Below the pieces are notes generated by a model that had not been told where the DNA came from, ran no database searches, and worked only from the letters and a program-made list of their open reading frames with translations. Positions 13,769 to 17,111 of a stretch of 36,913 bases of DNA are shown one piece after another. This DNA comes from a bacterium. Lineage in GTDB: Bacteria > Armatimonadota > Chthonomonadetes > Chthonomonadales > JAMCWF01. How positions within the stretch are numbered: the first letter of the stretch is position 1; the number at the start of each line of letters is the position of its first letter. The position numbers and the translations under genes are program-made. The stretch is from NCBI GenBank assembly GCA_021842405.1, contig JAKBZR010000026.1, forward strand, positions 1 through 36,913, given 5' to 3'.

Positions 13769-13782
13769 CGTCAAGGTGGAGT

Positions 13783-13912
13783 AAGAGTTCAGTTCTCTGG
13801 GTAATTTAGGCAGCAGGCTTTACCCCAATAGCAATAATCAACTCCATCCTCCCCTCGGGGGAGGGCAGGGGTGGGGGCGAACGAAAATCACTCCCATAAA
13901 ACTGAACTCTTT
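13783..13912. mobile_element. MITE-like element, copy A
   Basis: Terminal inverted repeats AAGAGTTCAGTT / AACTGAACTCTT (12 bp perfect). Internal CCTCCCCTCGGGGGAGG palindrome. Same 5' subfamily (TTTAGGCAGCAGGCTTTACCCC) as copy D. Confidence 0.75.
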
Positions 13913-13919
13913 CGGCAAC

Positions 13920-13947
13920 TTGACAAAGCTGAAATGGGTGTTATAAT
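13920..13947 (+). promoter_or_regulatory. Consensus sigma70 promoter upstream of the Rhs-tip ORF
   Basis: Perfect TTGACA (13920-13925), 16-nt spacer, perfect TATAAT (13942-13947). ATG 13956 lies 8 nt further on. Confidence 0.65.
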
Positions 13948-13955
13948 CAATTCAG

Positions 13956-15125
13956 ATGTTGCGATCCGGTAGTGGGAAGAGGCTTACGCTCACGAAGGTT
14001 CAAGCGATGGCTGACGCAACCGGTTTTACACCTCATCAGCACCGATATTCGGCTTACTCCAGGAGGGGCAGCGCGGGCGACCTCCAACCAAGCTCCACGC
14101 ACCCTGATACCATCAGATGTCACCTATCCAGCCGGGCCGATCGGTGTGGCGGCTCGTTTACGACCACCTACTCGGCGGACGGGATGCGGCAGAAAAAGGT
14201 CAACTCTTCGGGAACCGTTATCTTTGTTCGTGACGGCCAGAATGTTTTGATCGAGACGGACGCCAATCTGATTACCCAGGCTCACTACACCGATTCCCCC
14301 GGCGAGTGGGATGGATTGGCATCGGAGCGAAGGGGCTCAACCAGCAACTTTTACGGGTTCGATCAACAGTCAAACAGTCGCATTCTGGTTTCAATTGGTG
14401 GTAATATCACCGACGGCTACCTGTACAAAGCCTTCGGTGAGGAGCTTCTGGTTTCGGGAACGACGGTCAACCCGCTGCGGTTCGGCGGCGAGGTTGGGTA
14501 CTACCGTGACATCGCGAGCAGGTTGTACGTAAGGGCGAGGCACCTTCGGACTGATCTGGGACGGTGGATGAGCCGGGATCCGATCGGGTTCAAAGGTGGG
14601 TGGCATTTATACCAGTATGTTGTGAATGCGCCGGTGTTGTTTACTGATCCTACGGGGTTACAGTGGTGGCGTTGGCCTTGCTGCAACCCTGCGATAAAGC
14701 TGTGCTGTCAAAAGCCCAAACTTTCACCGATAGAAGCTGCCATTTGGAGTTGTATAAAGCCTGAGATAAGTATCGGCCCTAGCTTACCAATTCCAAATTC
14801 GGGCAATACCAATGAGTGTATTTATAATTTCTGTGTTCAGTTCACGAAGTTAACCCTTCTTAGTTGGTGCAATAGTGATTTGAACGGTCTGTTTGAAAGA
14901 TTTGGTGTTGAACTTCCACCCGGCGTGCATATTGGGATCGGCATCTGTGATTGTATCGCTGACGCGATCTGTAAGGCACAAACAAGTGTTCATAGTATGT
15001 TTGATATATGTAAGGGTGCAAGCGATATTAATGGTTGCATGAACTGTTGCGACAATATTGCTAATGCGGCAGGAATATCACCTGGTTTTTGCTATAGGTT
15101 GATTTGTTCGCAGAAACCAATATGA
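13956..15125 (+). CDS. Truncated RHS-repeat protein (Rhs 'tip') with Cys-rich C-terminal domain
   Basis: Rhs core ending LYVRARHLRTDLGRWMSRDPIGFKGGWHLYQYVVNAPVLFTDPTGL, then a unique domain of about 155 aa with 17 Cys. Only the last Rhs repeats are present, and the first ~65 aa are not recognisably Rhs. Confidence 0.85.
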   Translation: MLRSGSGKRLTLTKVQAMADATGFTPHQHRYSAYSRRGSAGDLQPSSTHPDTIRCHLSSRADRCGGSFTTTYSADGMRQKKVNSSGTVIFVRDGQNVLIETDANLITQAHYTDSPGEWDGLASERRGSTSNFYGFDQQSNSRILVSIGGNITDGYLYKAFGEELLVSGTTVNPLRFGGEVGYYRDIASRLYVRARHLRTDLGRWMSRDPIGFKGGWHLYQYVVNAPVLFTDPTGLQWWRWPCCNPAIKLCCQKPKLSPIEAAIWSCIKPEISIGPSLPIPNSGNTNECIYNFCVQFTKLTLLSWCNSDLNGLFERFGVELPPGVHIGIGICDCIADAICKAQTSVHSMFDICKGASDINGCMNCCDNIANAAGISPGFCYRLICSQKPI

Positions 15126-15358
15126 TCCCCATTGAAAAAGAATTTTGCAATGAGTTCGTAATGGTGCGTTGTGACACAGCAATTGGATATAAATAGAGTC
15201 GAGTGATAGGCTATCATAAAGAGACGAAGTTAGTTGTGGCCGTTTTTCCTTGATGCTTTGATCTCGATCAGAATTCTTGCTAAGACGCTTCTAAGAACAG
15301 AAGGGAGTGTCCTGCCTGAGAGGGAAGATCATAATTAATTAGAGAGGAGATATAATTA

Positions 15359-16024
15359 ATGCGATTTAATTATATTTCAATCCCAATCGTTATGTTTTTC
15401 GTCGGCATATTGACTGGTTGCCAACATGACAATCTGAATAACCGAAGAAGTAGCGGTATTAAATGGAATACTGTTGCCCAATGGGAACCTATATATTATA
15501 AAGGACGAAATATTATAAAAGTAGGTGATTATAATTTGGTTTTTCCAGTTACTTTGCCAAATCATATTAATCCTCTTGGTAATAGAGGGTTAATGGGGAT
15601 ATATACTCAAAAGAGAATTAATTATTTAGTGGTTTCTTTTTATTTTGACGTTGAACATGAGGAATTCATACGTAGATGGGCCGTTAAAATGAAAAAAAAT
15701 TTATGGATTCCAGAGAAAGATTTCCTCGGTAAACCGAAGTACGGATCATCCGGAATTAATGATAATAAAATATGGAATTACGACATAGAGGCGAATACGA
15801 TTTATGGCAGGATCGGCATTAACTTTAGCGGCGCTCCGAATGATCCTAACGAAAAGACAGCTCTAATGAAAGGAAAGCAATACAAAATGTCCAATAATTA
15901 TTTTAAGCTTATTTATGCGTTATGGGGGCGATACTCACCGGTAAAAGGAATCAAGCGACTAATTGAACTAGATATAAAGTATCCAATAGAGCATAACCAA
16001 CAATCTCATAGCAAAATTAAATAG
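15359..16024 (+). CDS. Small predicted lipoprotein, unknown function; candidate cognate immunity protein for the Rhs tip
   Basis: Signal peptide plus lipobox (IPIVMFFVGILTGC|QHD), GAGAGGAG SD upstream, visibly AT-rich relative to the rest of the window, directly downstream of the Rhs tip on the same strand. Confidence 0.7.
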   Translation: MRFNYISIPIVMFFVGILTGCQHDNLNNRRSSGIKWNTVAQWEPIYYKGRNIIKVGDYNLVFPVTLPNHINPLGNRGLMGIYTQKRINYLVVSFYFDVEHEEFIRRWAVKMKKNLWIPEKDFLGKPKYGSSGINDNKIWNYDIEANTIYGRIGINFSGAPNDPNEKTALMKGKQYKMSNNYFKLIYALWGRYSPVKGIKRLIELDIKYPIEHNQQSHSKIK

Positions 16025-16244
16025 TTGCTTCGTTAATGCAAGATTATTATATTCAATTATAAAAGAGCCTGTCCGACAAACGCATAATATTAGAGGGGAC
16101 TCCAAATAGTTTACATAACAATTATATTATATCGCTCGAAATAACATTGCGATGTCAATTATTTAATGTTCCCAGTAATAACCCCAAACAGACCACGCTG
16201 ATGTCGAATTTAATAGCTCTTAAAACCGCTTCGGCGATCATAAA

Positions 16245-17111
16245 ATGCAAGTGTTAGGCAATACAAAACTTAATCATATATCATTCAAAAGCTGCCTCTA
16301 TAAACTACTGGGGAGCAGACGCCTGTTGCAGCTCTGGTACAAAACCAAAAGAGAGTGCATCATCCCATCAAAAGACTTTCGACTGTTCACCGGCCCGATC
16401 AAGAAGGAAGATAAGAATGAAGTCTTTCTCTGGCATATCCCCTCCTGTCGTTCCGTCCGGCTCGACCCGGTGGCGGCCGATCTGATGCGCCTTGCAACCG
16501 CTTCACCAAGCGAGGCAAAAGAGATCATTCCAACCATAGCCCGAAATCATTCCGCCGAAGGGCTGGCCGAAGGTTTTCAATCCCACGCTACCCTGCTCGC
16601 CTGGTTCAACGGACGGACCACTCCTCCCCCATCAACAATGGAGCCTCCGCCGCAAAAGGGCGAGCTGCTGATATTCGGCAACCTCGTCTGCAATCTGAGG
16701 TGTCCCTACTGCCTCTCCAGAGATGCAAGAGAAGAGGCGGACAAGGGCAAGGCTCCCAAGCTTATGCCGATCGAGACGGCAAAGCGGAGCATCCGGTTCA
16801 TCGCTGAAAAGATGGCCGGCAAGGCCGAGCACATCTACATCAACTTCACCTTGGGCGGCGAGCCGCTGCTTTCGTTCGACCGGTACCGGCTGCTGCGCGA
16901 CTACTGCAGTGAAGTATCGGACGAATTCGGTATACCGGTCACCCTCAATATGAACACGAACGGCACTGTCTTCACCGACGGGTTCATTGAATACTGCGAG
17001 CAAAACGGGGTGCAGATGGCGGTCTCCCTTGACGGCTCCCGTGAGATACACGATGCGATGCGGCCGTTCCAATCCGGCGAAGGCAGCTATGACGCTCTTG
17101 TTTGTGCGTAG
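16245..17111 (+). pseudogene. Radical-SAM peptide-maturase-like gene, C-terminally truncated (no SPASM/auxiliary cluster region)
   Basis: CNLRCPYC radical-SAM motif, INFTLGGEPLLSFDRYRLL, LNMNTNGTVFTDGFIEYCEQNGVQMAVSLDGSREIHDAMRPFQSGEGSYD, then an abrupt stop. Family members normally continue for more than 100 aa after this point. Confidence 0.75.

Follow-up and report, generated by a model that had tools for sequence, protein, structure and literature searches.

A gene pair in an Armatimonadota genome, made up of an Rhs tip with a Cys-rich C-terminal domain (CTD) and the lipoprotein gene that follows it, is best explained as an orphan Rhs-CT/immunity cassette, which would encode a toxin that is stabilised by disulfides and acts on the envelope, together with a lipoprotein that confers immunity in the periplasm; we hold this reading with a probability of roughly two in three. 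The locus has a sharp domain boundary, occurs as a pair in two bacterial families, has undergone exchange as a cassette, carries the marks of coding constraint and has Cys-rich sister tips. It lies in a window of 36,913 nucleotides, the DNA analysed here, which is the whole of one contig (C40) of a 3.5 Mb genome (G000) that is 97% complete. The features of the locus are collected in Table 1; an Rfam search of the window matched no RNA.

Table 1. Coordinates of the features at the Rhs tip locus, in window positions.
Feature	Position	Strand	Description
MITE-like element	13770..13924	.	32-nt terminal inverted repeats (81%), directly upstream of the tip
Leader	13917..14155	+	three copies in the host genome, each fused to an Rhs tip
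Sigma-70-type promoter	13920..13947	+	TTGACA-16-TATAAT, 12/12 consensus matches
Tip ORF	13956-15125	+	389 aa; bears GRWMSRDPIGF...DPTGLQ
Probable translated orphan Rhs-CT protein	14007..15125	+	372 aa; ATG common to three paralogues
Truncated Rhs core	14157..14660	+	168 aa, ends in DPTGL; TIGR03696
Variable cassette	14590..16102	+	differs from C112, flanks on both sides homologous
Cys-rich CTD, candidate toxin	14661..15122	+	154 aa, 17 Cys
Lipoprotein, candidate immunity protein	15359..16024	+	221 aa, 34% GC, lipobox LTGC (Cys21)
Truncated radical SAM maturase	16245..17111	+	286/482 residues aligned, C-terminal part missing

An orphan tip with its own promoter

The initial annotation described a canonical Rhs core end in the tip ORF, and a match to TIGR03696 (Rhs_assc_core, 61 bits), which spans residues 157-235 and stops exactly at DPTGL, agrees with this. 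The full-length delivery domain and the YD-repeat shell are absent from the window tip, and since only the core of about 168 aa remains, we filed it under orphan tips rather than under full Rhs toxins. The lineage does have longer frames (~600-1300 aa), in this and other genomes, where they run into contig ends or have no clear N-terminus. Elsewhere in the host genome, an unusual Rhs architecture is seen in an 1828-aa open frame with an N-terminal Peptidase_C39 domain and RHS repeats (L056 1428-6914, G000:C63).

The promoter upstream of the tip is nearly identical at two paralogous tip loci, and the promoter region together with ~200 nt of leader is present at three loci of the genome (window, C96 and C112). 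Compared with shuffled sequence, the conserved leader has no extra RNA structure (z +1.27), and its first 50 codons, with 1 synonymous versus 3-5 nonsynonymous changes when compared with the window copy, do not look like those of a constrained protein. The Rhs core, by the same kind of count, seems to be constrained as protein, given synonymous to nonsynonymous codon changes of 39:9 against the C96 paralogue and 40:18 in the other comparison. Position 13956 is probably a false start, and the ATG at 14007 the likelier one, because it is in frame and common to the three copies and because all leader indels fall upstream of it; an RBS-like GAAGG stands before it at 13994-13998.

A Cys-rich domain and its lipoprotein neighbour

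Beyond the boundary lies a domain of 154-156 aa with Cys clusters of the types CC, CDC, GCMNCC and CYRLIC. Counting reproduces the 17 Cys, the clusters and the length of ~155 aa first reported for it, and at least 17 Cys in 156 residues would arise with P ~2e-11 at 1.25% Cys, the frequency in the 18 other ORFs of the window. The domain matches no family in Pfam, NCBIfam, PHROG or PADLOC and has no credible match in the PDB, and collections of phages, plasmids and viral contigs hold no relative of it. Its AF2 model, built from a two-sequence alignment, is poor (pLDDT 50.6), and a Foldseek search with this model returned nothing significant. A PLA2-like domain was considered for the resemblance of ICDC to the PLA2 helix motif and was ruled out by the absence of the catalytic His-Asp pair.

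The next gene on the same strand is the AT-rich lipoprotein gene of the earlier description, of the length and with the lipobox given there. It is preceded by a good RBS (AGAGAGGAG, 15341-15349), and its product begins with a signal peptide and a lipobox ending in Cys (MRFNYISIPIVMFFVGILTGC). The protein likewise matches no Pfam or NCBIfam family and no PDB entry, which agrees with the original impression that neither member of the pair has a known toxin fold; the viral scan held no relative of it either. It is not homologous to the lipoprotein that follows another Cys-rich tip of the genome (C32).

The folds of DcrB, EagR and PsbP are one fold, termed Mog1/PsbP-like, and DcrB is itself a lipoprotein. 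The AF2 model of the window lipoprotein, also from a two-sequence alignment, is poor (pLDDT 47.8), and many of its top Foldseek matches are DcrB, SciW/EagR and EagT6 (E 0.06-0.2), with PsbP lower (to E 0.4), none of them significant; we treat this weak, model-based resemblance as a lead only. Since Rhs effectors are bound by Eag proteins, the lipoprotein might on this basis be an effector-handling chaperone of the PsbP/DcrB/EagR type and not an immunity protein. Eag chaperones, however, work in the cytosol, on TM helices at the N-terminus, whereas the window protein has a lipobox and comes after a C-terminal domain, and with structural matches that stay below significance we find the chaperone role highly improbable.

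Conservation of the pair in a second family

Among 291 genomes of the phylum Armatimonadota, one clear homologue of the CTD was found, in a metagenome-assembled genome of the same order and a different family (G032, MAS4.bin79, JAJZOL010000071.1). It is 51% identical, keeps 12 of the 17 Cys, and is directly followed, after a gap of 17 nt as against 234 nt in the window, by a lipoprotein that is 35% identical to ours and whose lipobox Cys aligns with that of the window protein. The same pair thus exists elsewhere, and the domain was not met apart from its lipoprotein: both clear copies are linked to one, and the downstream gene is in this respect specific to the CTD. Differences between the two CTDs at the three codon positions (.32/.29/.57) point to constraint at the protein level. 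Weaker matches in other genomes (E ~1e-4 to 0.02), partial or interrupted by stops, were treated as chance and left unused. A second type of Cys-rich CTD, with a signal-bearing partner of its own, is likewise shared between the host genome and G033 (CTD 46%, partner 39%, E 3e-26).

That the CTD has only two known members in the 291 genomes counts against the toxin/immunity reading. Two more distant relatives of the lipoprotein occur in gene contexts without Rhs (G022 and G023), and the antidote may therefore have been recruited from a broader family of envelope proteins.

Cassette exchange and flanking elements

A paralogous locus on contig C112 shares both flanks with the window, at 86% DNA identity over the leader and Rhs core (13917-14590) and at 81-91% in the region that starts at 16102 and reaches into the radical SAM gene. 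Between these flanks C112 has unrelated sequence, with genes for another 17-Cys tip, which is very hydrophobic, and for a multi-TM protein. As CTD and lipoprotein are both replaced on C112 while the flanks stay, we regard them as one unit; a joint swap of the CTD and the next gene between paralogous flanks is, judged from the sequences, a signature of toxin/immunity module exchange. By analogy with colicin-type immunities, the hydrophobic tip of C112 and its TM partner (L050 1967-2428 and 2449-2871) would fit a candidate pore-former/immunity pair.

Related copies of the MITE-like element that abuts the window tip are found at L054, L061, L053, L051 and L055, often at or inside Rhs tips. Genes for CcpM/PapB-related radical SAM proteins also recur beside Rhs tips (window 16245-17111; L050 3353-4801; L118 2792-3715), and no cognate precursor is evident for these tip-adjacent genes. 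Their presence raises the idea that the Cys-rich tip is the substrate of the adjacent maturase, which would install thioether crosslinks, since a ranthipeptide/CcpM-related radical SAM gene comes after Cys-rich tips in both the window and C112 and a fragment of one lies within the Rhs array of G032. The paralogue on C112 is intact, but the window gene ends at ~286 of 482 residues and the copy in G032 is truncated too; relatives sit in a cluster of their own, beside a Cys-rich precursor of TAT-like type, and nine other genomes that carry Rhs tips of this kind lack the family. We consider a maturase substrate scarcely credible, and do not count the radical SAM gene as part of the toxin function.

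The cluster with the TAT-like precursor is seen at two loci (L071, G000:C32:9500-16500, and L155, G033:C86) and combines a pilin-like protein, a pair of radical SAM proteins and a precursor-like protein of 157-178 aa, whose leader is TAT-like and whose long tail is repetitive and Cys-rich. It is possibly an unusual, large RiPP system.

Rhs tips across the genome and the phylum

The host genome holds 41 matches to the Rhs core, many of them in tandem arrays (on C41, C32, C89, C95, C84 and C116), and ~20 further tips with other CTDs. Many of these other tips bear stops or truncations, and the window pair could accordingly be decayed debris, relics of an array that are neither expressed nor deployed. 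The truncated core of the window tip, the MITE-like element and broken radical SAM gene that flank it, and the seemingly unconstrained first 50 codons of the shared leader are all compatible with decay. Against it stand an open frame, a consensus promoter and RBSs, coding constraint on both core and CTD, and an intact pair in another family (G032), and we judge debris to be unlikely.

A scan of GTDB with Rhs-core patterns yielded loci from two genomes (G032 and G033), and these, the host genome and further Armatimonadota genomes provided a catalogue of 59 tips with CTDs of at least 60 aa. Cys makes up at least 4.5% of the CTD in 36 of the 59. The median Cys content is 7.3% for the tips nearest the window core (at least 60% identity, n=22) and 4.7% for the others (n=37), a set that mixes two lineages. 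On a tree of the tips, the Cys-rich label clusters, with 9 changes versus 18.4 after shuffling and none of 500 shuffles as low, on a topology whose deep forks are weakly supported and with near-copies that inflate the clustering. These genomes also contain a separate Rhs lineage (C89 in the host; contigs C5, C39 and C43 in G033), whose tips are Cys-poor, with a nucleotidyltransferase match in one of them, and whose partners mostly have no signal or TM segments. Exported partners follow 19 of 29 Cys-rich tips versus 7 of 17 others, a trend only (P 0.13) that depends on crude calls of signals, TM segments and starts.

Several sister Cys-rich tips weakly resemble enzymes, each time below the curated cut-offs of Pfam: the lytic transglycosylase domain DPBB_1 (E 5e-4 and 1.4e-3), SLT (E 2e-3 and 0.06) and, with HExxH motifs, the matrixin/HEIGH metallopeptidases (E 0.01 and 0.06). 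As far as such similarities go, all of them would indicate extracytoplasmic substrates. Cys-rich Rhs tips with HExxH-like motifs, and hence candidate secreted metalloprotease toxins, occur at L134, L137 and L140. At L054 (2200-3264 and 3917-5035), two similar multi-TM proteins of 350-370 aa (~8-9 TM) each come right after a near-identical, very short Rhs tip, and may be products of orphan immunity genes that arose by tandem duplication.

The catalogue also bears on whether the Cys-rich domain is a cytoplasmic metal-binding domain (zinc or Fe-S) and the lipoprotein an unrelated neighbour. Its 17 Cys, with a CxxC inside GCMNCC, may also serve as metal ligands, and the gap before the lipoprotein gene is wide in the window. 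Yet the lipoprotein is co-conserved beside the CTD in G032, where the gap is short, the conventional Rhs tips of the same genomes are Cys-poor, and the sister Cys-rich tips look like secreted enzymes, all of which makes a cytoplasmic metal-binding role very unlikely.

Discussion

The initial annotation had proposed a toxin-immunity pair with a target in the envelope or periplasm, and our results support this in part: the pair is co-conserved in G032, was exchanged jointly on C112, and has sister tips that resemble extracytoplasmic enzymes. The proposal is weakened by the lipoprotein relatives away from any Rhs in two genomes, and poor AF2 models, non-significant Foldseek matches and the lack of a recognised toxin fold also count against it.

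Toxicity, immunity, disulfides, the target compartment and export are what we infer from these observations. The 154-aa Cys-rich tip would be a toxin domain that folds outside the cytoplasm with up to ~six conserved disulfides and is active in a competitor's envelope or periplasm. Immunity would come from the lipoprotein, tethered in the producer's own periplasm, where the toxin would strike. With a core of 168 aa and no export domain, the tip is either expressed locally or, likelier, a reserve tip. By analogy with Salmonella, a reserve tip would recombine onto full-length Rhs proteins via the common core (PMC3967940); the less likely course would be local expression from the tip's own promoter.

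The window tip seems to be one of dozens from a dedicated Rhs lineage. More tentatively, as a possibility that we rate as less likely than not, this Armatimonadota lineage may be devoted to disulfide-rich extracytoplasmic cargo (cell-wall hydrolases, metalloproteases, membrane-active proteins and new folds), paired with immunities in the periplasm or membrane, may operate with no T6SS and release its cargo outside the target cytoplasm, and may run parallel to a conventional lineage with cytosolic toxins in the same cells, with the window pair as a new toxin/immunity family. The chemistry of the cargo would report the compartment of toxin action, and the arrays provide dozens of toxin and immunity families that await study, in a phylum that has received little attention. 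A literature search of limited scope for Armatimonadota and Rhs returned no title or abstract on Rhs toxins of the phylum.

Comparison with known systems

Most work on Rhs toxins concerns Proteobacteria with a T6SS, in which the tip is injected. TssC/VipB (PF05943) is absent from the host genome (97% complete), with a positive E. coli control, and delivery is therefore probably not by a canonical T6SS. Like DcrB, PsbP and EagR, the window lipoprotein may have a Mog1/PsbP-like fold, to which its low-confidence model shows a weak, recurrent similarity; it has no sequence match to them, and the structural matches stay at E of at least 0.06.

Both orphan Rhs modules and immunity proteins with a lipobox have precedents (PMC3482391, PMC12419801, PMC3967940). 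What this locus adds is a candidate toxin, rich in Cys and unclassified, with its lipoprotein, and evidence that one Rhs lineage is enriched in Cys-rich tips, which probably act on the envelope. In Salmonella LT2, orphan Rhs toxins (rhs-orphan) are activated by recombination (Koskiniemi 2014, PMC3967940). The window locus is like these Rhs-CT/RhsI modules in its truncated core, DPxGL boundary and variable CTD with an adjacent gene, and like them it belongs to arrays of displaced tips with a homologous core that permits recombination. It differs in having a Cys-rich CTD, a lipoprotein partner and no TssC (T6SS) in the genome. It also has a promoter that fits the consensus and a plausible start, whereas known orphans are usually without initiation signals (PMC3967940).

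Imm65, an immunity protein with a lipobox, is associated with Tox-JAB-1 (Zhang 2012, PMC3482391). The window lipoprotein showed no family similarity in the Pfam and NCBIfam profile searches and is likened to Imm65 by description, not by sequence, as a lipid-anchored candidate immunity protein encoded beside a polymorphic toxin tip. Lipocone toxins and TipC offer a further parallel, with immunities that are TM proteins or lipoproteins (PMC12419801). Unlike the Lipocone toxins, the window tip has no family match and is again likened by description; as with those immunities, its partner would encounter the toxin in the membrane or in an extracytoplasmic compartment.
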